Shown here: piece by piece, positions 3,604 through 47,337 of the stretch
Layout of the letters: each line of letters starts with the position of its first letter
Numbering within the stretch: the stretch's first letter is position 1
Assembly (NCBI RefSeq): GCF_004785935.1
Contig: NZ_SRRP01000001.1
Location: forward strand, 930,001-994,000
Direction: 5' to 3'
Source: Streptococcus rubneri
GTDB taxonomy: Bacteria; Bacillota; Bacilli; Lactobacillales; Streptococcaceae
Length of the DNA stretch: 64,000 nucleotides
Translations under genes and position numbers: made by a program
Notes under the pieces: model-generated
What the model saw: the letters and a program-made list of their open reading frames with translations, nothing else
Databases searched by the model: none
What the model was told of the DNA's origin: nothing

Positions 3604-3641
3604 ACAAAAAAAGAGACCTGTTTTTTAAAAAAACAAGTCTC
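3604..3641 (-). terminator. riboswitch expression platform (intrinsic terminator)
   Basis: On the minus strand GAGACTTGTTTTTT pairs with AAAAAACAGGTCTC and is followed by seven T. The 5' arm is also the 3' strand of aptamer helix P1, so ligand binding and termination exclude one another: an ON switch. Confidence 0.85.
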
Positions 3642-3713
3642 GCTGTTTAATATAGTGCCGGAAATAATTCGGAATGACGACACTATCGCGGTTTCCCGCC
3701 AGCTACTCCCTTG
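3634..3713 (-). ncRNA. yybP-ykoY manganese riboswitch aptamer
   Basis: The minus strand carries the family signatures: CAAGGGAGTAGC at the 5' end, TCGTCATTCCG and CCGGCAC in the middle, and CAGCGAGACTTG at the 3' end, with CAAG/CTTG closing P1. This family senses Mn2+ and commonly precedes P-type ATPases or Mn exporters. Binding should hold the GAGACTTG strand in P1 and prevent the downstream terminator from forming. Confidence 0.9.
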
Positions 3714-3722
3714 AGTGGTTTC

Positions 3723-8834: not shown

Positions 8835-9014
8835 AAAGAGGCTGGGACAAAAGTCCTAGCCTCTCAATTGTCTTTGGATTGTCGAGCAAGACGCAGTGGT
8901 TGAGTGGGCTATATACGCTGATTTCATCCACTTTTACAGCCCTACTCAACTGTGCGGAGGTTGGACAACGAAATCGAATTCTAACGAATTACCGATTTCT
9001 GTCCTACTCTCTTT
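8835..9014 (+). repeat. three-hairpin intergenic repeat, copy A
   Basis: First of five copies. The element has three modules: H1 (AGAGGCTGGGAC... pairing with ...TAGCCTCT), H2 (a ~19-bp stem CGCAGTGGTTGAGT.../...ACTCAACTGTGCG enclosing a smaller hairpin), and H3 (GTGGGAC.GAAATCG.AATTC pairing with its complement). The ends form terminal inverted repeats near AAAGAG..TGGGACA, each with an outward T run. In this copy the inner hairpin has decayed (ATCCAC instead of ATCAGC) and H3 has one mismatch. It fills the convergent gap between murN and tpiA. Confidence 0.9.
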
Positions 9015-9060
9015 TAAGACAGAAAAAAGACGAGAAGTCTCTCGCCTTTTTTGTTCTGCA

Positions 9061-22904: not shown

Positions 22905-23044
22905 TTCTTTCCTCCAGTATTCGAGAGCGTTTCAAATTATAAGTTTAGTATATCATATTTCCTCATTTTTCAATTCAGAATCATCTGTTTTGCACGTTTT
23001 TTTTGCTATCTTGTTTCCTCCTCCTATTCAACGATGGCAATTCC

Positions 23045-23073
23045 TTGATTTTTGTAACCTATATTGTTACAAT
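23045..23073 (+). promoter_or_regulatory. gor promoter
   Basis: TTGATT (23045-23050), a 17-nt spacer and TACAAT (23068-23073), about 30 nt ahead of the start codon. The right arm of the inverted repeat at 23052-23072 overlaps the -10. Confidence 0.7.
23052..23072. promoter_or_regulatory. palindromic operator within the gor promoter
   Basis: TTGTAAC-CTATATT-GTTACAA: a perfect 7-bp inverted repeat with a 7-nt centre, filling the spacer and the -10 of the gor promoter, where bound protein would block polymerase. The same dyad (TTGTAA-N9-TTACA) lies over the promoter of the Rrf2-family regulator at 58821-58841, which is therefore the best candidate repressor. Confidence 0.65.
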
Positions 23074-23104
23074 GAAAGTGTAAATCAACAAAGGAGTACT
23101 AACC

Positions 23105-24454
23105 ATGAAAGAATTTGATATTATCTCCATTGGTGGAGGTAGCGGAGGGATTGCCACCATGAACCGTGCTGGAGAACATGGAGCCCGCGCCGCTGTTATT
23201 GAAGAAAAACAATTAGGGGGGACCTGTGTCAACAAAGGATGTGTCCCTAAAAAAATTATGTGGTATGGCGCTCAAATTGCAGAAGCCATTCGTGATTACG
23301 GTCCAGATTATGGGTTTACTTTTGAACAGACCAATTTTGATTTTGCGACATTAAGAAAAAATCGCGAAGCCTATATTGATCGAGCTCGTTCTTCTTTTGA
23401 TGGCAGTTTTAAACGAAATGGTGTGGAGTATATCCAAGGTCGCGCTCGCTTTGTCGATGCCCATACGGTTGAAGTCAACGGGGAAACCATCAAAGCTAAA
23501 CATATTGTGATCGCTACAGGGGCTCATGCTTACATCCCAGATCTACCTGGAGCAGACCTAGGAGAAACCTCTGACGATGTCTTTGCTTGGGAAGAACTAC
23601 CAAAATCAGTGGCTATTATTGGCGCTGGTTACATTGCGGTAGAACTGGCTGGTGTCCTCCATGCCCTAGGTGTTAAGACGGATCTCTTCGTTCGCCATGA
23701 TCGTCCCTTAAGAAAGTTTGATTCCTACATTGTCGATGGCTTAATGGAGGAGATGGATAAACAAGGATTGCCTCTCCATCCTCAAAAGGTTCCTGTTCGA
23801 CTCACGAAGGAAGAAAATGGTCAAATCCGAGTTTATTTTGAAGACCAAACATCTTTTGTCGCTGATCATGTCATCTGGGCAACAGGGCGAAAACCAAACG
23901 TCCAAGACCTCCATCTAGAAGCTGCAGGCGTCACCTTAAATGAGAAAGGATTCATTGCAGTAGATGAATACCAGAATACGGTTGTTCCTGGCATCTATGC
24001 CTTGGGAGATGTAACAGGTGAAAAAGAATTAACCCCAGTCGCTATTAAAGCTGGGCGCACTCTATCTGAACGACTCTTTAATGGAAAAACGGATGCTAAA
24101 ATGGACTATTCAACCATTCCGACCGTCGTCTTTTCTCACCCTGCAATCGGTACCGTTGGCCTGACCCAGGAAGAAGCCGAAAAACAATATGGCAAAGAAG
24201 CCATCAAGGTCTATACTTCTAGTTTTGCCTCTATGTATTCAGCTGTGACCCAACATCGTCAGCTGGCTAAATTTAAACTCATCACTGCAGGACCGGAAGA
24301 AACCGTTGTCGGTCTCCATGGTCTTGGATACGGGGTGGATGAAATGATCCAAGGATTTGCCGTTGCTATCAAGATGGGAGCCACAAAAGCTGATTTCGAT
24401 GCGACAGTCGCTATTCATCCAACTGGATCCGAAGAATTCGTTACCATGCGCTAA
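23105..24454 (+). CDS. gor: glutathione-disulfide reductase
   Basis: A 449-residue FAD-dependent disulfide reductase. It shows the FAD-binding [13 protein letters not shown], the redox-active pair in [13 protein letters not shown], an NADPH-binding [12 protein letters not shown] and the catalytic C-terminal HPTGSEE. It reduces glutathione disulfide with NADPH, defending against oxidants; zwf in this window is one NADPH source. AGGAG lies at a good distance before the ATG. It is transcribed alone from a promoter with an operator. Confidence 0.93.
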
Positions 24455-24458
24455 TATC

Positions 24459-24487
24459 AGAAAAGGTTTGTTCGACAAGCCTTTTTC
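24459..24487 (+). terminator. gor terminator
   Basis: AAAAGGTTTGT, loop TCG, ACAAGCCTTTTT, a few bases beyond the gor stop. Confidence 0.8.
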
Positions 24488-24549
24488 TTATGTTTAAATT
24501 TTAATGTATCATCGTTGAAGCTTCCATAGTCTAATCTTTCATTTTACCT

Positions 24550-24579
24550 TTCTTACCTTACATTTTTGTAAGATAAGAA
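24550..24579. other. unexplained 12-bp hairpin downstream of gor
   Basis: TTCTTA-c-CTTACA, loop TTTT, TGTAAG-a-TAAGAA: twelve pairs with a single mismatch. There is no T run after it, and gor already has its own terminator. The 352-nt gap from gor to the cyclase gene otherwise holds repeat copy B. Confidence 0.6.
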
Positions 24580-24621
24580 CCTTCGAAAGAATGAAATCTA
24601 GCTTCTCTTAAGATATTAAAA

Positions 24622-24800
24622 AAAGAGACTGGGACAAAAGTCCGGCCTCTCAATTGTCTTTGGATTGTCGAGTAAGACGCAGTGGTTGAGTGGGCTCTAC
24701 TACGCTGATTTCATCAGCTTTTACAGCCCTACTCAACTGTGCGAAGGTGGGACGACGAAATCGAATTCTAACGAATTACCGATTTCTGTCCCACTCTCTC
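24622..24800 (+). repeat. three-hairpin intergenic repeat, copy B
   Basis: H2 with a perfect inner GCTGAT/ATCAGC hairpin and H3 with a perfect GTGGGAC/GTCCCAC base are intact. The left end is AAAGAGACTGGGACAAAA with an outward T run on the minus strand. It ends 6 nt from the stop codon of the convergent cyclase gene. Confidence 0.9.
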
Positions 24801-24806
24801 TGTTGT

Positions 24807-25538
24807 TTATGGCAAGATAGCAATGGCACGAACAGGTGAACCAGTTGCCTTATCCCAGTGAGGGAAGGCAATTGAAATCAAGGCACCTACTGCTGGTACT
24901 TGATCCAAGTGGTTCAAGACTTCAACTTGGTAGATATTTTGTTCCAAAAGGTAGTATTCATTGACCAAGCCATGCTCTGCTGCTGGAATACCTGCATCAG
25001 TATCGAAGGTTTCATGACCCACAGCCTTGACATGGCGTTCATGAATCAAGAATTCCAAAGCTTCTCGGCTCCATCCTGGACTTTGTTGAACCCCATTTTC
25101 ATCTAGGTTACGCATAGCATCTTGATCTGGCCAACGTTTTGACCAATCACTACGGAAGGCGACAAAGGCCCCTTCTGCAATTTGTCCATATTCAGCTTCA
25201 AAATCTAAAATATCTTGTTTGCTCAAGATAAAGTTTGGGTTGGCTGCTACTTCTTTAGACTTGTCGATAACATAGAGTGGCAAGAGAAAATCTTTGAGGT
25301 CAATCTCATCCAACCAACGGCCACCTTCTACAAAATGAATCGGAGCATCAATATGCGTTCCGTATTGACCAACCACTGTAAATTTTTGGACATGGAAGCC
25401 ATCTTTTAGTGTGAAAAGGTCTTCTTGTTGCAAAGCAGGGAGAGCTGGAAAGTGAGGACTTTCTGCATTGATCTGGTGACTCAAGTCCACCCATTTTTTA
25501 GCTTGCAATTCTTTATAGATACTTAGTAAATCTGACAT
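24807..25538 (-). CDS. cyclase-family metal-dependent hydrolase (kynurenine formamidase-like)
   Basis: A 243-residue member of the cyclase/KynB family (PF04199). The metal-binding signature appears as GQYGTHIDAPIHF (about residue 78), with DLSHQI near the N-terminus and a C-terminal region around GHETFDTDAG. Family enzymes hydrolyse amides such as N-formylkynurenine or related cyclic substrates; the natural substrate here is unknown, and no tryptophan-degradation genes are nearby. It stands alone, bracketed by repeat copies B and C. Confidence 0.85.
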   Translation of the reverse strand: MSDLLSIYKELQAKKWVDLSHQINAESPHFPALPALQQEDLFTLKDGFHVQKFTVVGQYGTHIDAPIHFVEGGRWLDEIDLKDFLLPLYVIDKSKEVAANPNFILSKQDILDFEAEYGQIAEGAFVAFRSDWSKRWPDQDAMRNLDENGVQQSPGWSREALEFLIHERHVKAVGHETFDTDAGIPAAEHGLVNEYYLLEQNIYQVEVLNHLDQVPAVGALISIAFPHWDKATGSPVRAIAILP

Positions 25539-25682
25539 ATGGATTCCTTTCCTATAAGGGCTACACGAAATAAACGAATAAGGTTATTATAACAGTCCAT
25601 CTCATCATCCACAATGATTTGCGTTAATCTTGTTTTCTTGAATGGGATATAGTTTCAAGCTATAGTTATTGAAAGCATCAAA

Positions 25683-25863
25683 AAAGAGAGTGGGACAAAA
25701 GTCCTAGCCTCTCAATTGTCTTTGGATTATCGAGTAAGACGCAGTGGTTGAGTGGGCTCTACCACGCTGATTTCATCAGCTTTTACAGCCCTACTCAACT
25801 GTGCGGAGGTGGGACGACGAAATCGAATTCTAACGAATTACCGATTTCTGTCCCACTCTCTTT
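25683..25863 (+). repeat. three-hairpin intergenic repeat, copy C
   Basis: The least eroded copy. Its left end AAAGAGAGTGGGACAAAA and the inverted right end AAAGAGAGTGGGACAGAA differ at one position in 18. H1, H2 (with inner hairpin) and H3 are all intact. It fills most of the 338-nt gap between the cyclase gene and the PC4-like gene, ending 14 nt from the latter's stop. Confidence 0.92.
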
Positions 25864-25876
25864 CTTACTCAGTCTA

Positions 25877-26089
25877 CTACTGTTTAAATGCATCTAGCAG
25901 AACTTGGAATTCTTCATTGGTCAAAGTGATCCCTTTGCCCATCTTACTATGATCTGGGCTCCAAGTTCGTAGGTCATACTTAGCAGGCGCTCCATTAAAG
26001 CTAACCCGATTTAACTCCTTGGTCCATCCTTTTTCATTTTCAGATAAGACTAATAATTGTTCTTCGATTTCAAAAGTAAAATCTGCCAT
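25877..26089 (-). CDS. YdbC-family PC4-like single-stranded nucleic-acid-binding protein
   Basis: A 70-residue protein resembling Lactococcus YdbC, a PC4-fold protein that binds single-stranded DNA. Conserved features include the N-terminal strand FTFEIEEQLLVLSE, the KYDLRTWSPDHSKMGKGITL segment and the C-terminal helix. Its cellular role (transcription, repair or recombination) is unsettled. AAGGAG precedes the ATG. A sequence close to the competence box lies about 33 nt upstream. Confidence 0.85.
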   Translation of the reverse strand: MADFTFEIEEQLLVLSENEKGWTKELNRVSFNGAPAKYDLRTWSPDHSKMGKGITLTNEEFQVLLDAFKQ

Positions 26090-26121
26090 TTTCTTCTCCT
26101 TTTTCTTTTATTCAACTGAAT

Positions 26122-26129
26122 AATTCGTA
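26122..26129 (-). promoter_or_regulatory. possible ComX (cin) box, one mismatch
   Basis: The minus strand reads TACGAATT, one base off the streptococcal competence box TACGAATA, and lies at a fitting distance from the start of the PC4-like gene. No convincing housekeeping promoter is seen for that gene. The sequence is AT-rich, so chance is a serious alternative. Confidence 0.25.
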
Positions 26130-26158
26130 AAAAATTTTACAAAATGAATGAAATTTTC

Positions 26159-26164
26159 TATAAT
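26159..26164 (+). promoter_or_regulatory. -10 of the small gene at 26195
   Basis: TATAAT, with a TTACAA -35 16 nt upstream. It decides the start of the next gene, since an in-frame ATG at 26144 lies upstream of this -10. Confidence 0.6.
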
Positions 26165-26194
26165 ATATTGTATCAACTTATGGAGAATTATGCT

Positions 26195-26509
26195 ATGAAA
26201 AGATTTCTCGAGATTCTGAAGGACCGAGCGAATGAATTTTTCAACGATAAAACCTCTCAACCAGCTCCTCTCGAGGATGCTAAAATAATTCAGATTATTG
26301 AACTGGCTCTCCGCAAAAAACAAGGGGTCCATGTCATTTTCCAAAATAAGAGTTTTACAGGCGATATCGTGAAATATGACCAAGAACGAAAACAACTCAT
26401 TGTCAAGAATTTTAAAAAGAGTATGTCGACCATTATTCGCATCTCTGATATTCAAAAAATTAGTTTAGTTCCACATACGATTCGAATTGCACAACAAAAA
26501 ACACCGTAG
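26195..26509 (+). CDS. small conserved-looking protein of unknown function
   Basis: A 104-residue soluble protein; not recognised with certainty. The C-terminal half (about residues 45-90), with GVHVIFQNKSFTGDIVKYD followed by a strand and RISDIQKISL, looks like a small beta-barrel resembling YolD-like or Sm-like folds. The start at 26195 is chosen because GGAGA lies 9 nt before it and the promoter excludes the upstream ATG. The stop lies inside the terminator stem. It is divergent from the PC4-like gene. Confidence 0.7.
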   Translation: MKRFLEILKDRANEFFNDKTSQPAPLEDAKIIQIIELALRKKQGVHVIFQNKSFTGDIVKYDQERKQLIVKNFKKSMSTIIRISDIQKISLVPHTIRIAQQKTP

Positions 26510-26542
26510 GCTTTTTAGCAAGAAAAGCAGGCGGTGTTTTTA
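26499..26542. terminator. terminator overlapping the end of the small gene, facing the U32 gene
   Basis: AAAACACCG at the end of the reading frame pairs with CGGTGTTTTT, with a second inner stem TTTT/AAAA. It can act in both directions between convergent genes. Confidence 0.75.
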
Positions 26543-26557
26543 TTCTGTTCAATGTAA

Positions 26558-27844
26558 TCAGGCGCGAACTGTTTGGCTCGTTCCATCTTCCTTATAGAGG
26601 TTAATTAAGCCCTCTTTTAAAGCACGAATCATGTCACCTGGTTCTACACGAGTAGGCATATGGATAGTCAGTAGCTCCATCGGATTTGGAGCACGGTCAA
26701 TTTTATTGCCATTAGCGTCATGCAGATCCTCAATCACAGTTTCAAAATGGCGGAATCCTGGTCCATAAAATTCAACCTGATCTCCTTCATGGATAACATT
26801 CCGTTGACGGATGGTCGCAATTTGCTTATCTGCATCATAAGCAACGACTTCTCCAACAAACTTGTATTCTGGAATCTTGCGACGAGCCCCAAATAATTGC
26901 TCGTTTTCGGAAGGAGTACCATAATAAAAACCGGTCGCTAGCTCGCGTTGAGCCACTTTCCACATCTCATCAATCAAATCTTGCTTGATTGCTTCAAACT
27001 TCTCCGGACTTTCCAAATAAGCATCAACAGCTGCCTTGTAACAGTTTGCTACGGTAGAGACATAGTGAATGGACTTCATCCGTCCTTCAATTTTCAAGCT
27101 GTCCACACCATTTTCAATCATATCCGGGATATGATCAATCATAGACATATCCACAGCTGACATGGAGAACTCTTCTGGGATTTCCCCTTTTAAGCTCTTA
27201 CGTTCTTGTCCAAAAGGCATATCGTAAAGATCATACTTCCAGCGACAGGATTGGGAACAACCACCACGATTGGCATCCCGCATACTCATATGATTGGAAA
27301 GAGTACAGCGACCAGAGTAGGAAATACACATCGCTCCATGAACAAAAGCCTCGATTTCAACATCCGTCCTCTTACGGATTTCTGCCAGTTCTTCCATAGA
27401 GACTTCACGAGCTAATACAACACGTGTCAAGCCCAAGTCTTTCCAGAATTCTAGAGTTTCATAGTTAGTGGCACTGGCTTGTGTCGATAGGTGAATTTCC
27501 AATCCTGGTGCTTCAGTTGCTGCAATAGTAATCAAGGCAGGATCTGACACGATAACGGCTGCGATCCCGATATCTCGCAAACGACGGAACCATTCTCCAG
27601 CTCCAACTTCATTTCCTTCGTGCATGACCATGTTAGCTGCAACATAGACTTTGGCACCAAACTGGGCTGCAAATTGAACCCCTTCTTCCATTTGTTCAAA
27701 TGTGAAGTTCCCTGCACGACTACGAAGACCATAGGCCTGACCACCAATAAATACAGCATCTGCACCATAGCGCACAGCTACTTTTAGTTTTTCCAAGGTT
27801 CCAGCTGGTGCTAAAACCTCAGGTCTTTTCAATTGTTTTGTCAT
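26558..27844 (-). CDS. U32-family protein, TrhP2-like (tRNA hydroxylation)
   Basis: A 428-residue U32 peptidase-family protein matching B. subtilis YrrO/TrhP2 in length and partner. The family signature is seen as EAFVHGAMCISYSGRCTLSNHMS, with conserved cysteines including GGCSQSCRWKYDL. In bacteria this family makes 5-hydroxyuridine at tRNA position 34, using prephenate; it is often mislabelled collagenase. The second of two adjacent ATGs is better spaced from AGGAG. It lies downstream of the shorter partner on the same strand. Confidence 0.85.
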   Translation of the reverse strand: MTKQLKRPEVLAPAGTLEKLKVAVRYGADAVFIGGQAYGLRSRAGNFTFEQMEEGVQFAAQFGAKVYVAANMVMHEGNEVGAGEWFRRLRDIGIAAVIVSDPALITIAATEAPGLEIHLSTQASATNYETLEFWKDLGLTRVVLAREVSMEELAEIRKRTDVEIEAFVHGAMCISYSGRCTLSNHMSMRDANRGGCSQSCRWKYDLYDMPFGQERKSLKGEIPEEFSMSAVDMSMIDHIPDMIENGVDSLKIEGRMKSIHYVSTVANCYKAAVDAYLESPEKFEAIKQDLIDEMWKVAQRELATGFYYGTPSENEQLFGARRKIPEYKFVGEVVAYDADKQIATIRQRNVIHEGDQVEFYGPGFRHFETVIEDLHDANGNKIDRAPNPMELLTIHMPTRVEPGDMIRALKEGLINLYKEDGTSQTVRA

Positions 27845-27977
27845 CATATCTCCTAGTATATTCCAAGTATATTAGTTAGATTATCAATCTTGTATATTTT
27901 ATAGCAAATTCAGCAGAAAGGCAATGATTTGAGCATGTTTTTAAAATTCTTATTGTCTACTCTCTACCAAAAAGGAA

Positions 27978-28003
27978 GGCCTGCTCTTTTTGGCAGGCTT
28001 TTC
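27978..28003 (-). terminator. hairpin after the TrhP1-like gene
   Basis: On the minus strand GCCTGC, loop, GCAGGC, followed by a mixed C/T stretch (CTTCCTTTTT). It may be leaky, allowing transcription into the TrhP2-like gene. Confidence 0.55.
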
Positions 28004-28007
28004 TCCT

Positions 28008-28937
28008 TTATTTAACCATGTCAGGATCATAGTCATAAAATCCAGTGTCAAGGAAACGATTCTTGGGATGCAATTGGTGAATCTGTTCATCCAATAGATA
28101 GGCTTGATCAGAAGTGAAAGTCCCAGCTTCCAATAGCTCCCGAGCTTTCACGAAACACTTAGCAATTTCCACAAAGTTTTGACCAGGTGTGTAAATTCCC
28201 TCCAACTTCCAATGGGTAAAACCATGTTCAACCAGCTCTGGTAGTTTGGTCATCAAATCCAAGTCATTATTGGCAAAGATATGAGTTCCATGTTTGTCTT
28301 CAAAGATGGAGTAATGGCTATCTGGATCTCCAGGTTCGGCAAGAAAGAGGTCACGTTCTCTCGTCTTCTCGTCATCAATATGAGTAAAATTATAATAATT
28401 TTGCAAGAGAGGACGTTTAGAGTGGTGAATGACACTCGCCCCATAAACCAAAACCTCTGCAGGAATCTCCAAAATTTCTGGCATCTGGAAGAGTTCGGCA
28501 GATGGAATTTCTCGAGCAAGAACAGCTTCAGAAACACCTGCTTTTTGTCCCCAGAAATTGATTTGACGACTACTTGTCACCATGGTAGAAGCATCATAGA
28601 TTGTTTTAAAAGTATAGCCATCCCTCTTCAATACATAAAAGACACCGGCATCTCCCACTGTAATATAATCCACCTCAATGGATGCAAGGAAATCTAAAAA
28701 AGGTTTGATATTGTCCATCATATCTTGGTGCATCAAGGCATTGACGGCTACTGTTAATTCTTTTCCAGCCTCATGAACCAGCTCAGAAATTCGACTTAAT
28801 TCGTCATACGAAAAAGTATGGGGAAGTCGTAATCCGTACTCTTTTTCACCAACATAAATACGGTCTACCCCTGCTTCTAGAAGAGCTTGAACCTGTTCGA
28901 TACTCTCAGCTGTAGCTGTAATAATAATCTTATTCAT
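28008..28937 (-). CDS. U32-family protein, TrhP1-like (tRNA hydroxylation)
   Basis: A 309-residue U32-family protein, the same length as B. subtilis YrrN/TrhP1. It has the barrel-type N-terminus IITATAESIEQVQALLEAGVDRIYVG but lacks the cysteine-rich segment of the longer partner. The pair is inferred to act together in 5-hydroxyuridine formation at tRNA wobble positions. About 160 nt separates the two genes. Confidence 0.82.
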   Translation of the reverse strand: MNKIIITATAESIEQVQALLEAGVDRIYVGEKEYGLRLPHTFSYDELSRISELVHEAGKELTVAVNALMHQDMMDNIKPFLDFLASIEVDYITVGDAGVFYVLKRDGYTFKTIYDASTMVTSSRQINFWGQKAGVSEAVLAREIPSAELFQMPEILEIPAEVLVYGASVIHHSKRPLLQNYYNFTHIDDEKTRERDLFLAEPGDPDSHYSIFEDKHGTHIFANNDLDLMTKLPELVEHGFTHWKLEGIYTPGQNFVEIAKCFVKARELLEAGTFTSDQAYLLDEQIHQLHPKNRFLDTGFYDYDPDMVK

Positions 28938-28996
28938 GAAAACTATTATACCAAAAAAATAATTTGGCTATTTAAATTTCTTAATTTTGTAAAAAT

Positions 28997-29013
28997 TGTA
29001 ACATTTTTGTAAC
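28997..29013 (+). promoter_or_regulatory. WalR/VicR box
   Basis: TGTAAC-ATTTT-TGTAAC: an exact direct repeat with 5-nt spacing, matching the WalR consensus TGTWAHNNNNNTGTWAH. A third, less well phased TGTAAA precedes it at 28988. It sits just upstream of where a -35 would be for the -10 at 29036-29041, a typical activator position. Confidence 0.8.
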
Positions 29014-29032
29014 ATTTATAAGCTCAAAAACA

Positions 29033-29041
29033 TGTTAAAAT
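29033..29041 (+). promoter_or_regulatory. extended -10 of the small membrane-protein gene
   Basis: TGTTAAAAT (TAAAAT at 29036-29041), about 28 nt before the ATG, with no recognisable -35: a layout that suits activator-dependent transcription. Confidence 0.65.
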
Positions 29042-29068
29042 AAGAGAGTACTGTTAGGAGAGAGAAAT

Positions 29069-29365
29069 ATGCCCGCAAGAAAAATACGAAAGTTTGAAGA
29101 TTACGACTATCTCGAAGTCCCTCTTCAACAAGAGAATACAACAACTAATTATGATTTTAATCTTGATACTGAACCAGCTCCGCAATTAAGTGAATTACTA
29201 TTTTTCCTTAATATTGCTGTCTTCTGTATCTTAACCGTTTTGTTTAGCTTCATCTTTTTGTCAACGAAGATGAATACCTTCTTTGCTTTTGCCCTAGCAA
29301 TTGTATCTAGCTTCGGAAGTATCCAAGCCTTCCGCTTCTTCAAGCTAAAACGCAAAAAGGACTAA
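29069..29365 (+). CDS. small two-helix membrane protein (DUF3270-like)
   Basis: A 98-residue protein with an acidic, polar N-terminal half (about 1-45) and two hydrophobic helices (about 47-67 and 71-88), ending in a basic tail KLKRKKD. This layout and size resemble the streptococcal DUF3270 family, function unknown. AGGAGAG lies before the ATG. The WalR box upstream suggests it belongs to the cell-wall stress regulon run by VicRK, whose genes lie 19-21 kb away in this window. Confidence 0.75.
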   Translation: MPARKIRKFEDYDYLEVPLQQENTTTNYDFNLDTEPAPQLSELLFFLNIAVFCILTVLFSFIFLSTKMNTFFAFALAIVSSFGSIQAFRFFKLKRKKD

Positions 29366-29378
29366 GAATGAATTTTTT

Positions 29379-29402
29379 AGCCTCCTTCGGGAGGTTTTTT
29401 AG
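29379..29402 (+). terminator. terminator of the small membrane-protein gene
   Basis: AGCCTCC, loop TTCG, GGAGGTTTTTT, close after the stop. Confidence 0.85.
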
Positions 29403-29432
29403 CATTCTCTGACTTCTAATCTATAAGATTAA

Positions 29433-29469
29433 AACAAGAACCCTCACCTAGTGGTGAGGGTTCTTGTTT
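29433..29469 (-). terminator. terminator of the lgt-YtxH operon
   Basis: AACAAGAACCCTCACC, loop, GGTGAGGGTTCTTGTT: a near-perfect 15-bp stem adjoining the YtxH-gene stop, with flanking A and T runs. Confidence 0.85.
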
Positions 29470-29938
29470 ATTCGGCTTCTACATCATCTTCAACAGTCGT
29501 TTTTATTGCTTCTGAAGCTACTGGCTTATCTTCTAAATCTAAAACGATTTCTTCACTTTCTAACTCTGATTTAGAAAGTAAAGGAGCTACTTGACTTCCT
29601 GTCTTTTGTTGAATTTTATCTTTAATCGTTTGGATAGCATCTTGGGAGAAGTCTACAACCTCTTGGGTTTTATCTTTAACGGTTTCCATCACCGTTTCTT
29701 TTGTAATTTCTCCTTTTTCTACCTTCTCCTTGGTTTGCTGAATCGCATCTGTAGCTTGTTTAGAAAAATCTACTGCAGTTTGTTTTACGGACTCATGGAC
29801 ATCTTGTGGGTGTTCCTGGTATTCTTTGACAAATCCTTTGACTTTACCAGTCCATTCTTTCCCTTTTTTTGTTGTCAGGAAATAGGCGGCAGATGCCCCT
29901 GTGATAGTTCCGATTAATAATGATGATAAACGTCCCAT
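29468..29938 (-). CDS. YtxH-domain protein
   Basis: A 156-residue protein with an N-terminal glycine-rich membrane helix (SSLLIGTITGASAAYFLTT), the basic GKEWTGKVK motif of YtxH proteins, then a long amphipathic, Lys/Glu/Gln-rich helical region and an acidic tail. Function is unknown; B. subtilis YtxH is a general-stress protein encoded beside a DUF948 protein, as here. AGAGGTACC precedes the ATG. Confidence 0.82.
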   Translation of the reverse strand: MGRLSSLLIGTITGASAAYFLTTKKGKEWTGKVKGFVKEYQEHPQDVHESVKQTAVDFSKQATDAIQQTKEKVEKGEITKETVMETVKDKTQEVVDFSQDAIQTIKDKIQQKTGSQVAPLLSKSELESEEIVLDLEDKPVASEAIKTTVEDDVEAE

Positions 29939-29953
29939 AGGGTACCTCTTTTC

Positions 29954-30337
29954 TTATTTAAATAATTTCATAGCCATGCGAGCAGCTTTTAAACCAACTG
30001 ACGTTTTGATGGTCTTTTTACCCGCTACAACGGCTTTTTTACTAATTTGACGAGCTTGATCATTAAGATCCGATACCGATACGGACAAATCCGCTACCGC
30101 TGTAAAGAGCGGATCGATGGTTGCAACCTTTTGATTCAAATCTTCTGTCAATACATTGACTTTTGCTAATAATTCGTTGGTATGATGCAAGGTTACATTG
30201 ACATCAGAGGTCAATGTTTTAATCGTAACCTGAGTCTCATCCACAACCTTTCCAATCTTGGAAAGGAAAAAAATCAAGTAGATGACCAAGGCCACCAGAG
30301 CCAATCCTAAAATTCCATAGGCAATTTCAATAAACAT
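29954..30337 (-). CDS. DUF948 (YtxG-like) membrane protein
   Basis: A 127-residue protein with one N-terminal membrane helix (about 4-26) followed by a predicted coiled coil with regular Val/Leu/Thr spacing (about 30-100) and a basic C-terminus. It matches the DUF948/YtxG family and lies 15 nt upstream of its usual YtxH partner and 11 nt after lgt. Function is unknown; cotranscription with hprK and lgt is likely. Confidence 0.82.
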   Translation of the reverse strand: MFIEIAYGILGLALVALVIYLIFFLSKIGKVVDETQVTIKTLTSDVNVTLHHTNELLAKVNVLTEDLNQKVATIDPLFTAVADLSVSVSDLNDQARQISKKAVVAGKKTIKTSVGLKAARMAMKLFK

Positions 30338-30348
30338 TTCTTTTCTCC

Positions 30349-31131
30349 TTAACTTGTTTCAATTTGATAAAAGGACGCCTTCTTTTTCCTTTGATAAATA
30401 ATGATCCCAAGACCCAACATAATGAGGAAGAGGGAGAGCCATTGAGAGACTCGAAATCCTAAGAACATCAGGCTATCCGTTCGCATGCCTTCGATGACCA
30501 TCCGTCCAAAACCATACCAGATTAAGTAGAAGGCTGTGATTTCTCCTTTTCGGAGAAAATATGGACGTCGACGGAGAAGGATTATGAGCACAAAGCCAAG
30601 TAAATTCCAGCTAGATTCGTATAAAAATGTTGGCTGTCGATAATGCCCATCAATATACATCTGGTCTCGAATGAAAGCAGGCAAGTAATCTAAATTCTTC
30701 ACAATAGCCCCATAAGCCTCTTGGTTAACAAAATTGCCCCAACGGCCAATACTTTGAGCAATCATGACACTCGGTGCAGCGATATCTAAAAAATCAACCG
30801 GGTCAATCAAACGACTGCGTGAAAATAGGTAGAGGACTAGAGCCCCTGCAAGGAGTCCACCATAGATAGCAATCCCACCGTTCCATACGGCAAAAATCTC
30901 TCCTGGATTTTCCCTGTAATATGACCATCGAAAAATAACATAGTAGAGACGGGCACCTATAATGGCTACTGGAAAGGCGATTAGAATGAAATCTATGATA
31001 TCGTCTGACTCTATCCCTTTACGAGGGGCTTCTTTCATAGCAAGGATGACCGCTAGGATTAAGCCAAATACAATACAAATTGCGTACCAACGAATACTGA
31101 AGGGACCAAATTGAATAGCCACAGGATTCAT
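30349..31131 (-). CDS. lgt: prolipoprotein diacylglyceryl transferase
   Basis: A 260-residue, seven-helix membrane enzyme that transfers diacylglycerol from phosphatidylglycerol to the lipobox cysteine of prelipoproteins. The Lgt signature [13 protein letters not shown] lies near residue 130; [12 protein letters not shown] and the C-terminal [18 protein letters not shown] are also typical. Its ATG overlaps the hprK stop (ATGA), so the two are translationally coupled, a common arrangement in Firmicutes. Confidence 0.95.
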
Positions 31132-32060
31132 TCTTTCACCTCATTCTGACCAATCAACTGGGTTAGTCGATCTTCAAAGGTTTTGGTAGCATCATATCCC
31201 ATTTCCTTAGCACGATAATTCATAGCCGCTGCTTCAATGACAACCGAAATATTGCGACCTGTTTTAACGGGGATGCGAATTCTTGGTATGGTCACTCCAC
31301 AGAACTCAATTTCTTCTCCATTGTTTCCTAAACGATCATAGGTTTGTTCCTTGGTGTAGTTTTCCAAGTAGACAGCGATTTGAACCTGTGAAGAATCTTT
31401 CACTGCACTGGCACCATAGAGACTCATGACATCAATGATTCCTACTCCCCGAATCTCCAACATATGGCGTAGAATTTCAGCAGGCTCACCCCACAAGGTC
31501 ATCTCATCACGAGCAAAGACATCTACTCGGTCATCCGCCACCAATCGATGGCCTCGTTTGACGAGTTCTAACCCAGTCTCACTCTTCCCGATTCCGCTAT
31601 CTCCTTGGATGAGAACCCCCATTCCATAGATATCCATCAATACTCCATGGACACTGGTTCGTTCAGCAAGGAGAGAATCTAGGTAGCTTGATAGTTCACC
31701 CGACAAGCGACTAGTTGGAACTCGACTGCTTAGAATGGCGATTTGCTTTTCCTCTGCAGCTAGGAGCATTTCTTCAGGAACCTCTAGATCCCGCGCTATA
31801 ATGAGTACGGGCGTTTCCGGCTGAAACATCTTTCTCAATACTTGGTGTCGATTGTGGGAGGTCATCTTGATGAGGTAAGACCACTCTTTCATCCCAACCA
31901 ATTGAATCCGCTCTGGAGTATAGTAATCAAAATATCCTGTCATTTCAAGTCCAGGTCGTGAAATATCTGCCGTTGTAATCTCCTTATCAAAGAGACTTTC
32001 ATTGCCATAAATAACCTTCAAACGAAGCTTTTTAATTAAATCTCGGACTGTTATTGCCAT
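31128..32060 (-). CDS. hprK: HPr kinase/phosphorylase
   Basis: A 310-residue bifunctional enzyme that phosphorylates or dephosphorylates HPr at Ser46 and so controls CcpA-dependent carbon catabolite repression; ccpA itself is at 55.5 kb. The Walker A motif is GDSGIGKSE (about residue 153), with the family signature [10 protein letters not shown] (about 202). It is first in an operon with lgt and the DUF948/YtxH genes. GGGAGAAG precedes the ATG, and TATAAT lies about 30 nt upstream. Confidence 0.96.
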
Positions 32061-32244
32061 AGGCTTCTCCCTTTTTCTTTTCTCTTTCTATTATAGCAAA
32101 TTATTCCCTGGTAAGACTTGCTCAAGCATCATTTTTTAGTATCGAAACTGAGGCTATTATTCTCACACGCATTCCAGTACCCTTTGATTTCCCTATTTAT
32201 CCTTTTTTCCCATTTTTCAATCGTTTCTTCTTTTGAAAAAAAGA

Positions 32245-32423
32245 TGAGAGTGGGACAGAAATCGGTAATTCGTTAGAATTCGATTTCGTCGTCCCACCTC
32301 CGCACAGTTGAGTAGGGCTGGAAAAGCTGATAAAAAGCGTAGTAGAGCTCACTCAACCACTGCGTCTTGCTCGATAATCAAAAGACAATTGAGAGGCTAG
32401 GACTTTTGTCCCAGCCTCACTTT
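32245..32423 (-). repeat. three-hairpin intergenic repeat, copy D (inverted)
   Basis: The only copy in opposite orientation. H1 (CCTAGCCTC/GAGGCTGGG) and H3 are intact; the inner hairpin of H2 has decayed (AGCTGATAAAAAGCGT). It lies in the 386-nt gap between hprK and the PspC gene, with its H1 end 24 nt after the PspC-gene stop. Confidence 0.9.
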
Positions 32424-32446
32424 CTTATTCGATTCATGAAAATTTT

Positions 32447-32722
32447 TTAAAAGAATGGATCGTCATCTTTGATCACTTGAGCATCCTTACGTTTGCGAGG
32501 TCCGAGGCCGTACTTTTCTCTTTCAAGATCTTCTTTATAAGGCAAAGAGAAGGCACACAGGCAATAAATAGCTAAGCCTACAAGCCCATAAAAATGAAAG
32601 ATACTAAAAAGCACAAAGAGAAAACGCAATAGGTTTGCATCGAGCCCAAATCGATCCGCTAGTCCAGCAAATACTCCAAAAACGATTCTGCCTCGACGTA
32701 CTTTATAAAATGTTGGATTCAA
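32447..32722 (-). CDS. PspC-domain membrane protein
   Basis: A 91-residue PspC-family protein: the N-terminal YKVRRGRIVFGVFAGLADRFG motif, one membrane helix (about 32-55), and a charged C-terminal tail. PspC proteins act in envelope stress signalling in other bacteria; the role here is unknown. The start is TTG at 32720-32722, preceded by AGGAGG at good spacing. Confidence 0.85.
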   Translation of the reverse strand: MNPTFYKVRRGRIVFGVFAGLADRFGLDANLLRFLFVLFSIFHFYGLVGLAIYCLCAFSLPYKEDLEREKYGLGPRKRKDAQVIKDDDPFF

Positions 32723-32782
32723 GGGCTTACCTCCTATTATTTTAGAACAGTATATCCCGAAATCAAGTCACTGTCATCAGAC

Positions 32783-33235
32783 TCAAGGCCGATTTCCTAG
32801 TTTAGTTGTACCTTGATACCTGAGTAGTCCTCTGCACTGGCCACAGCGGTACTTTTGAAGATTAATCTGCCGCTTTCTTCTGAATTCTTGCCCACAGCTC
32901 GTACAAACATAAATCTTATAGTTTTCCTTATCAACTGAAGGGGCATAACGCAAGCCATCTACCTCTTTGAGCAAGGCCTTGAAATCTTGGTCCTGATGGC
33001 GATACCCCTTTTTCATGTAATAGAGATGATAGTGGCACAATTCATGGCGAACAATCTTTCGAAAAATTTCCCAGCCAAATTCTTCTAGTATTCTAGGATT
33101 GAAATCTAGATGACCATCTTTAGGAAAGAAGCGACCACCGGTCGAACGCAGGCGATTATTCCAGATGGCTTGATGAAGAAAGGGGCGGCCAAAATCTTCC
33201 AACGATACTTCTTGAACGTATTTAGTCAGATTCAT
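32783..33235 (-). CDS. SprT-like metalloprotease-fold protein
   Basis: A 150-residue SprT-family protein with the zinc-binding motif HELCHYH (about residue 64) and a C-terminal zinc ribbon of two CxxC pairs (CTSCGQEF and CGQCRG). Eukaryotic relatives (Spartan) degrade DNA-protein crosslinks; bacterial roles are poorly known. It overlaps the end of tex by 14 nt and is presumably translated from the tex transcript. Confidence 0.87.
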
Positions 33236-35348
33236 GTGGTGCCAAGAGGGAAAGATTTACTTTTTCCCGTTCTAAATCAATCTTGTAAACCCAAACGGTC
33301 ACTAGGTCGCCAACTGAAACAACTTGACTTGGATGCTTGATAAATTGCTGGCTCATCTGTGAAATGTGGATCAAACCATCTTCATGAATTCCAATATCGA
33401 CAAAGGCCCCAAAGTCAACAACATTGCGGACAACCCCTTCTAATTTTTGACCAATCTTCAAGTCCTTCAAATCAAGAACATCCTGGCGAAGGACGGGAGC
33501 ATCAAAAGAATCACGTAAATCACGACCAGGTTTGAGAAGATCTGCGACAATATCTTTCAAGGTCTCAGGGCCAATTTCAAGCTCCTGGGCCATAGAAACT
33601 ATGTCAATTTGTTTTAATTTGGCTTGGGCTTCTTCATCCATCTCTCTAATCCCTAGTAAGGTAAAGAGCTTCTTAACTGCAAGGTAACTTTCTGGATGGA
33701 CCCCTGTCCGATCAAGGAAATTCTCACTTTCTGGAATCCGTAAGAAACCAGCTGCTTGTTCAAAGGCCTTGGCTCCCAGACGAGGTACTTTTTTAATTTG
33801 CGCCCGAGAGGTGATTACACCTTCTTCTTCCCGGTATTTCACGATGTTCTCAGAAATGGTTTTATTGAGACCAGCCACGTGAGACAAGAGGGCTGGACTA
33901 GCAGTGTTTATATTAACACCGACTTGGTTTACTACGGTATCGACAACGAAATCAAGGCTTTCAGATAATTTCTTCTGGCTGACATCGTGCTGGTACTGGC
34001 CGACTCCGATTGATTTTGGATCAATCTTTACCAACTCAGCCAATGGATCCTGCAAACGACGTGCAATGGAGATGGCTGAACGCTTTTCAACCGTCAGTTC
34101 CGGAAACTCATGGCGAGCCAATTCACTAGCTGAATAAACAGATGCACCACTTTCATTCACAATGACATAACTCACATTTGGAACTTCCTTGAGGACTTCC
34201 GCAACAAAGGCTTCGCTTTCTCGACTTGCCGTTCCATTCCCAATCGCAATGATTTCCACGCTGTATTGACGAATCAACCGTTTCAGTTCTTCTTTGGCAG
34301 CTTCAATTTGTGCTGCTTTAGCCGGTGCAACAGGATAAATCACCTGAGTGGTTAACATCTTTCCTGTTTGATCGACAACAGCCAATTTGGCTCCTGTCCG
34401 GAAAGCTGGGTCAAAGCCTAAGACCACGCGCCCCTTGAGGGGAGCAATCAGCAAGAGGTGACGAAGATTTTCAGAGAAAAGTTGAATGGCCCCATCTTCT
34501 GCCACTTCTGTCAATTCTGTCCGAATTCGACGCTCCATAGCTGGTAGCATCTTCTTTTTCAGAGCCTGGTTAATGACTTCTTCGATGTGGCTATTCTTCG
34601 ATTTAAATCGGGCTTCAAAGTGACGAATCAAACGGTCTACAGGATGCTCAAATCCAACCTTCAATACCCCTAGTTTTTCTCCACGGTTTAAGGCAAGGGT
34701 CCGATAGCCCTGCATATTTGCAATCTTCTCAGAAAAATCATAATAGATTTGGAAGACTTGCTTCTCGTCCTTGCTCTCATCCTTCAAGCTAGAGGTTATC
34801 AAGGAATGCTTGCGGATTTCCTGGTAGGTGAGGTTGCGCAATTGCGGGTCTTCTGCAATCGCTTCGACTAAAATATCGATTGCTCCAGAAAGGGCATCTT
34901 TTACAGTTGGAAAAGCTTCTGATAAAAATTCCTCTGCTACTCTTTCCAAATCCTTTTGATCTTGAAGAATCATCCGAGCAAGCGGGAAGAGCCCTGCCTC
35001 ACGCGCAATGGTAGCCTTGGTCCGGCGTTTTTCCTTGTAGGGAAGATACAACTCTTCTACATCTGCCAGTTTTTCAGCCTGCTCAATCGCTTCTTTTAGG
35101 GCTGGGGTGAGTTTCCCAAGCTCCTCGATCTTAGCCAGGACAGTTTCTTTCCGATCAGCCAAGGCTGTCAAGGACTTGTCCATATCGATAATGGCTTTGA
35201 TCGCTACTTCATCTAGATTCCCAGTAGCATCTTTTCGATAGCGGGCAATAAAGGGGATGGTGGAGCCCTCTGCTGTTAAGGTCAAAACGGTATCAATTTG
35301 TTTAAGACTCACGCCCAATTCCTGGGCTATTTTTTCATATTTTTCCAT
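33222..35348 (-). CDS. tex: Tex-family S1 RNA-binding transcription accessory protein
   Basis: A 708-residue Tex protein of normal length: N-terminal helical domain, YqgF-like nuclease fold ([16 protein letters not shown], about residue 315), helix-hairpin-helix region ([16 protein letters not shown], about 480) and a C-terminal S1 domain ([22 protein letters not shown], about 640). Tex influences transcription in several pathogens; its molecular role is unsettled. The ATG stands 7 nt after the -10, predicting a leaderless transcript. The SprT-like gene follows by overlap. Confidence 0.93.
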
Positions 35349-47157: not shown

Positions 47158-47337
47158 AAAGAGGCTGAGACAAAACTCCTAGCCTCTCAATTGTCTTTGG
47201 ATTGTCGAGCAAGACGCAGTGGTTGAGTGGGCTCTACTACGCTGATTTCATCAGCTTTATAGCCCTACTCAACTGTGCGGAGGTGGGACGACGAAATCGA
47301 ATTCTAACGAATTACCGATTTCTGTCCCACTCTCTTT
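47158..47337 (+). repeat. three-hairpin intergenic repeat, copy E
   Basis: All three hairpins are present; H1 is slightly altered (GCTGAGACAAAACTCC). The H3 end faces vicX, 8 nt from its stop codon, so vicRKX transcripts would read H3-H2-H1 before the DUF454 gene. The 47135-47345 gap contains little else. Confidence 0.9.

Follow-up and report, generated by a model that had tools for sequence, protein, structure and literature searches.

The repeat of about 180 bases at positions 25683-25863 of the window (the whole stretch of 64,000 nucleotides analysed, G000:C1:930001-994000, from a 2.16-Mb Streptococcus genome designated G000) raises the question of what kind of element it is, how it reaches its sites and what it takes the place of. 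All five copies listed in the preliminary description proved to be real, the four others being 93-97% identical to the one at 25683-25863 (copy C, plus strand; these coordinates include flanking AAA/TTT, which may be target-derived). Copy A (8835-9014, plus strand) lies between the convergent genes for a FemAB-family protein and triosephosphate isomerase, and is adjoined at about 9023-9050 by a hairpin that constitutes a second terminator, found also in relatives. Copy B (24622-24799, plus strand) directly follows the stop codon of a putative cyclase gene encoded on the minus strand; the oxidoreductase gene on the plus strand, upstream of this copy, retains its own terminator at 24460-24486. 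Copy D (32246-32423, minus strand) is located near the HPr kinase gene, and copy E (47158-47337, plus strand) between a DUF454 gene and a gene for a metallo-beta-lactamase-fold protein. The number five holds for the window but is an effect of its size, since the whole genome yielded 53 candidates, 40 of which were scored and all matched, so that at least 40 scored copies are present.

The element is bounded by GAGGCTGGGACAAAA (also written GAGGCTGGGACAAAAG) on one side and GAGAGTGGGACAGAA on the other. In copy C the left terminal inverted repeat (25686-25697, plus strand) reads GAGAGTGGGACA and the right one (25849-25860) reads GAGAGTGGGACA on the minus strand. The near-identity of the inverted ends that had been pointed out earlier is thus a true feature of copy C, but not a general one: most copies listed have GAGGCTGGGACA at the left end and GAGAGTGGGACA (reversed) at the right end. 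Within the element three hairpins can be delineated: H1 (25686-25713), which is imperfect in copy C and together with the A run upstream of it appears terminator-like on the minus strand; H2 (25740-25805, plus strand), a bulged stem with an inner hairpin; and H3 (25806-25860, plus strand), a long hairpin followed by a T run and therefore terminator-like. The same H1/H2/H3 layout was recovered in the predicted fold of copy E (z -7.6). The predicted fold of copy C is more stable still (z -9.5, with none of 200 shuffles as good), because its near-perfect inverted-repeat ends pair together.

Analysis of an alignment of 23 sequences (21 of the 27 listed members plus two window copies, with near-duplicates and two oddly shortened or diverged members omitted) revealed that the stems covary. 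The RNAalifold consensus comprises H3 and H2, the latter together with its inner hairpin, but not H1, which does fold in individual sequences, copy E being an example. Of the 36 consensus pairs, 15 (11 of 20 in H2, 4 of 16 in H3) show a compensatory double change at least once, and 94.9% of 820 alignment cells can pair. Sliding the partner strand lowers the pairing to 37-49%, and none of 500 shuffles of the alignment matched both the 15-pair and the 94.9% values, a count that does not amount to a probability, since the aligned sequences are related. Two consensus pairs are G-U in 21 of the 23 sequences, which suggests that the relevant folded form may be that of the plus strand, whether RNA or single-stranded DNA. 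Since the ends by themselves would not call for the degree of conservation observed, a force additional to a transposase may act on the element.

The outward-directed T runs noted originally turned out to be general. After exclusion of 7 of 84 elements that were diverged or not parsed, at least five T residues in the eight bases past H3 were found in 65 of 77 elements, and, in mirror image, at least five A residues in the eight bases ahead of H1 in 64 of 77, compared with 7% of background eight-base windows that contain at least five T. The median predicted energy is -25.5 kcal/mol for H3 (72 parsed) and -16.7 kcal/mol for H1 on the minus strand (49 parsed). In a simple scan for terminators over positions 23000-34000, copies B, C and D were all passed over. 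Judging from its anatomy and from what it replaces (see below), the element would terminate transcription in both directions.

Its genomic position is in keeping with the position of terminators. Among the 84 copies with at least 150 aligned bases, which occupy 45 sites in five genomes (G000, G024, G135, G169 and G191), 43 are flanked by convergent genes, 35 by tandem and 5 by divergent ones, and 1 falls within an ORF call; in the background, 139 of 944 gaps measuring 40 bases or more are convergent. Where a gene points at the element, the distance from its stop codon is at most 25 bases in 75 of 78 cases. Four of the five "divergent" elements correspond to the site of copy C, where we suspect a minus-strand gene missed by the simple ORF caller. 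The region 25868-26500 next to this copy is matched by relatives, yet only short ORFs were called in it, and the gene that follows copy C may be broken or may have its start elsewhere.

A consensus search, which had been proposed as a check, was carried out in 197 Streptococcus genomes (one per species, G000 included). It yielded a match at E <= 0.001 in 145 genomes and none in 52; first-look candidates numbered as many as 150 in a genome, of which only about four per genome were scored. Some of these matches are weak; many of the listed ones are 96-99% identical across most of the element. Among 80 named loci of 21 kb, nine contain a match: S. cristatus BCC41 and Streptococcus sp. Marseille-P6264 are 96% identical to the element, the matches in S. 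equinus, S. vicugnae, S. porci, S. ferus, S. massiliensis and Streptococcus sp. 'caviae' are more diverged, and that in S. orisasini is short. Presence is patchy between the relatives in the five-genome comparison. G024 carries 11 full elements in 229 kb, and several contigs of its assembly start or stop within copies. Carriage by phages or plasmids was rejected, with matches in only 2 of 50,697 phage records (to a part of the element) and 2 of 72,556 plasmid records.

To see what occupies the corresponding position when the element is missing, we compared 400 kb each of G000, G135, G169 and G191 and 229 kb of G024 on the matching contig, accepting alleles in which both flanks aligned to within 25 bases of the junction and allowing gaps of -40 to 1500 bases. 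This mapping of empty sites, suggested in the preliminary description, revealed 75 element-lacking alleles, all of which hold at least 24 bases; a gap shorter than 24 bases was found in none of the 75. In 59 alleles, from 26 sites, the element's place is taken by an unrelated segment of 24-47 bases that looks like an intrinsic terminator, i.e. A tract, stem, loop, stem, T tract. The sequences of these segments are unrelated across sites and often common to relatives at one site. A hairpin score of at least 12 was obtained for 49 of the 59, the corresponding rates being 0.25% for shuffles and 7.2% for intergenic windows taken at random; the other 10 score below the threshold and appear by eye to be imperfect hairpins. 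The native hairpin is found, for instance, at the site of copy A in G191, at that of copy D in G135, and at that of copy E in G024 and G135, where it is a 26-base terminator, AAAAGGAGATGAGCTCATCTCCTTTT, differing by one base in G135. Likewise, among the 52 of 80 named loci listed for the region after the femAB-like gene, many have a plain terminator, L040 has the element on the plus strand and L034 on the minus strand.

The remaining gaps are longer. At the copy C site, where the element is also present in G024, G135 and G191, G169 has a gap of 60 bases occupied by a solo H3-like palindrome, which is composed of the outer H3 sequence plus its complement and possibly arose by template switching. 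Two alleles of 72 bases have a hairpin inside, as judged by eye, two (126 and 155 bases) are shortened elements, one is 191 bases long, and one of 1353 bases is an insertion sequence judging by its tail. Nine alleles of 273-466 bases all contain, by eye, a second repeat with the core GTGAGTACGGACGTCAGCGAACTTC. This repeat is about 230-250 bases long (e.g. G000:C1:868091-868340 and ~1073189-1073400), occurs also in G135, G169, G191 and G024, and occupies the same terminator sites; at G135:982464 it sits between two hairpin copies. At its ends it is similar to another IS1182 subgroup (TCAGATTGAAGACAAAG), in which many copies likewise have a hairpin on either side.

No target duplication was seen at the aligned sites of the five genomes. 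The junctions share AAA(G)/(C)TTT, and at some sites a few letters of the foot of the old hairpin are left (e.g. AGG at G169:1463182). Since there are alleles with a hairpin and none with a clean gap, the element stands in the place of the terminator and not in or beside it, i.e. it appears to replace the native intrinsic terminator hairpin. Because native hairpins are common to several element-lacking genomes, we infer that the element was gained. At 7 of 19 shared sites the copies are in opposite orientations, which indicates repeated insertion or inversion.

As a control, we compared 32 convergent gene pairs of G000 with their counterparts in the four relatives. Where hairpins without the element were present on both sides, they were the same in 40 of 49 comparisons, intermediate in 7 and different in 2. 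In 17 comparisons the element in one genome was opposed by a hairpin in the other, and in 2 of the 19 with the element on one side only the other genome had no hairpin; both genomes had the element in 11 comparisons, and one or no hairpin was found in 16. Native hairpins thus remain mostly unchanged, and wholesale change is largely tied to the element. A generic swap of terminators independent of the element is accordingly disfavored as the main cause, with a single counter-example site, G024:C12:13371, at which G000 and G135 have one native hairpin and G169 and G191 another, unrelated one, all without the element.

A comparable choice of target has been published for the IS1182 family. The available text of Furi et al. 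(2016, PMC4923244) describes IS1272 and TnSha1 as inserting into hairpins, mostly terminators, without a sequence consensus; the stem-loop is deleted bluntly, the target is not duplicated, and both orientations occur within one target. On account of this, we searched Streptococcus for IS1182 transposases: NF033551 matched in 137 of the 197 genomes at E <= 0.001, in 63 of them over the cut-off. Examination of 20 stretches around such genes, with the borders determined by two-copy alignment in G196, G095, G071 and G036 and by the motif elsewhere, revealed GAGnnTGGG or GAGnnTGAGACA at both ends of 16 IS1182-family copies in 15 loci (L452-L457, L461-L468, with two copies in L468, and L471). The motif is absent from the other five stretches (L458-L460, L469 and L470), which represent other subgroups or are cut by contig ends. 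Examples of the ends are GAGTCTGGGACAATAG and GAGGCTGGGCAAAAAGTAG, and some, such as GAGGCTGGGACAAAAGTC in L468, are nearly identical to those of the element. A plasmid-borne insertion sequence of E. hirae has AAAGAGAGTGGGACAATAG at both ends, and those on plasmids of S. haemolyticus and S. aureus (ISSau3) have GAGGCTGGGACAT at one end, the other end being a near match to it. The terminal inverted repeats of the element therefore match the ends of IS1182-family insertion sequences from streptococci and an Enterococcus plasmid. Its target, a hairpin lost without duplication, is also as published for IS1272, other IS1182 members being possibly different; in the other streptococcal subgroup hairpins flank both sides instead. 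Directly downstream of the stop codon of one gene, three states were encountered: a native hairpin in G000, the miniature element in G024 and a full IS1182-type insertion sequence in G196.

The shared ends, taken together with the insertion of IS1272 into hairpins, make an IS1182-type MITE the best reading of the element. We put at roughly 0.84 the probability that it is a gene-less MITE of this type, which replaces hairpins, was spread in trans and acts as a bidirectional terminator; the earlier proposal of a mobile bidirectional terminator or MITE is supported by the exchange of hairpin for element, the IS1182-type ends and the outward T runs. As we picture it, a non-autonomous element with IS1182-family terminal inverted repeats would be mobilized in trans by an IS1182-type transposase of the GAGnnTGGGACA kind that recognizes folded hairpins rather than a sequence. 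The enzyme would cut close to the base of the stem of an intrinsic terminator, the rest of the hairpin would be dropped, and the element would be joined between the leftover A tract and T tract, with no target duplication. The lost terminator would be replaced by a bidirectional one, both ends of the element being hairpins that face outward T runs; the insertion would therefore be nearly harmless, and dozens of copies could accumulate directly after stop codons.

The source of the transposase is less straightforward. An intact matching transposase is lacking in G000 (the best match to the alignment of transposases of this type has E 1.6e-10), and G024 has no match to that alignment at all. The IS1182-family transposase encoded at G000:C1:676139-677422 (minus strand) belongs to another subgroup. 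Decayed transposases of the matching type are present in two close relatives of G000 (G135:C1:903385-903954 and G140:C2:117232-117801), as remnants of model positions 323-507 with 3 and 4 stops, respectively. Across the 197 genomes the element is not predicted by a strong transposase match, defined as E 1e-200 or below and including a few matches with stop codons: it was found in 20 of 26 genomes with such a match and in 125 of 171 without (p 0.81). As G000 and G024 have no intact matching transposase, present-day mobilization is no more than a possibility; the elements could be leftovers of earlier activity, could move during the passage of an insertion sequence, or could spread between strains by recombination. 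No larger autonomous copy with a transposase between the same ends was found in 1.83 Mb of the five genomes. A longer pair of ends in G024 (1236 bases, with an ORF of 243 residues) proved to be two neighboring elements enclosing the gene found between copies B and C of the window, and not an autonomous copy. A hairpin-acting Y1 (IS200-type) transposase as the needed partner was also rejected: the element-rich genomes G024, G027, G030 and G038 lack any, G001 has nine and no element match, and the element is present in 92 of 122 genomes with such a transposase and in 53 of 75 without (p 0.51).

The missing transposase of G000 and G024 is one of several observations that would fit an exchange of terminators through natural transformation and recombination at matching A and T tracts, with no transposase involved. 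The shared AAA(G)/(C)TTT junctions would provide such matches, the two unrelated native hairpins at G024:13371 would represent an exchange without the element, and copies in the same site and orientation in different genomes are only slightly more alike (median 0.967) than those at different sites (0.950-0.956), as expected from gene conversion. Nevertheless, the exchange is largely tied to the element, in view of the constancy of native hairpins (40, 7 and 2 of 49), and the ends of the element match a transposon family at the borders of that family. We therefore regard recombination as an unlikely primary mechanism, which could still move established alleles between strains.

The preferential location after stop codons, where terminators occur anyway, would also be obtained if an ordinary MITE inserted next to a terminator and the redundant native terminator were lost afterwards. 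That scheme is disfavored and in our opinion very improbable, as slow loss should leave intermediates, a clean short gap was observed in none of the 75 alleles, and the flanks mostly align to the hairpin on both sides. Hardly more credit can be given to an immobile bidirectional terminator cassette made by the host, copied and kept by selection: the covarying structure and the terminator-like ends are what such a cassette would possess, but the ends are of the transposon type, both orientations occur at one site, and the distribution is patchy among relatives, with 52 of 197 genomes lacking a match.

A model of the repeat (R1) searched in 299 genomes of the class matched in 35, including 16 of Streptococcus, 18 of one other family (f17) and, weakly, one of a further family (f18). 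Sixteen of the f17 genomes belong to a single genus (g27), which is probably Staphylococcus, and one each to g69 and g120; most of the listed f17 matches cover model positions 1-182. In g27, too, G306 has an element of this homologous kind where G598 has a hairpin, at one site with flanks 88-90% identical. Two Staphylococcus phage records match H3. In an Enterococcaceae-like family (f3) 27 of 98 genomes matched at E 0.01 or less, all weakly (best E 3e-7), and the sequences examined have ends similar to those of the streptococcal element and different cores. One locus from an Enterococcaceae-like genus (L353) has a 175-base repeat family with the ends AAAGAGCGTGGGACAAAAG.

The nearest named repeat is EFAR of Enterococcus, reportedly a family of palindromic miniature elements of about 170 bp, whose empty sites are said to be unrelated stem-loops of 24-37 bp, each losing most of its length on insertion. 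Going by this description, EFAR would resemble the streptococcal element in inserting by stem-loop replacement; the EFAR-like repeats of f3 have the same kind of ends, whereas their internal modules differ. The streptococcal element is best classed as a MITE of the IS1182 type whose way of operating would be that of EFAR. IS1272 and TnSha1, as characterized in the available text on them, share with it the hairpin targets, the deletion of the stem-loop, the absence of duplication and both orientations, but are autonomous and carry a transposase gene, whereas the element has no gene and a structured core of its own.

BOX, RUP and SPRITE are, like the element, small intergenic repeats of streptococci. 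In the available text of Croucher et al. (2011, PMC3049150) BOX and RUP are reported to generate target duplications, SPRITE to be terminator-like and near the 3' ends of genes, and all three to be almost absent outside S. pneumoniae and S. mitis, with BOX relatives in S. suis. The suspicion that the element differs from BOX and RUP agrees with these published descriptions, as no target duplication was seen at its sites. The intergenic stem-loop families Efa-1, Sta-1 and Sta-3 of E. faecalis and S. aureus, as described in the available text of PMC2267715, have a similar length and may be relatives. A S. aureus paper among the hits (PMC9093591) was discarded, the hit being to a primer only. In the openly accessible literature searched, judged by titles and the beginnings of abstracts, no published name was found for the streptococcal repeat, and the possibility that it would prove to be a named one did not materialize there.

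If the element is what we propose, a very common and apparently unnamed streptococcal repeat receives a mobile-element explanation, and both it and, by their ends, the EFAR-like repeats become tied to a transposase family with a published unusual choice of target. Terminators could then turn over through wholesale replacement by mobile DNA, which would bear on how 3' ends are annotated, how the 3' untranslated regions of different strains are compared, and how assembly breaks are interpreted. More tentatively, and with the odds somewhat against it, Streptococcus, Staphylococcus-like and Enterococcus-like genomes may have in common an ancient superfamily of elements that replace terminators and descend from IS1182-type transposons, with the transposase since lost in many hosts. 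The H2-H3 core, whose homology between Streptococcus and the Staphylococcus-like genus extends along its whole length, would now be selected in its own right as a standard bidirectional terminator; a sizeable share of the terminators of those genomes would in that case be domesticated mobile DNA.

Two further observations concern the window itself. At the Rfam gathering score the element is unmatched, and the sole match in the window is the Streptococcus small RNA SSRC10 at 3608-3715 on the minus strand (66 bits). Copies B and C, which are in the same orientation, flank the single putative cyclase gene (24807-25538), with the same arrangement in G024, and to judge from this layout the two copies and the gene might form a composite unit.
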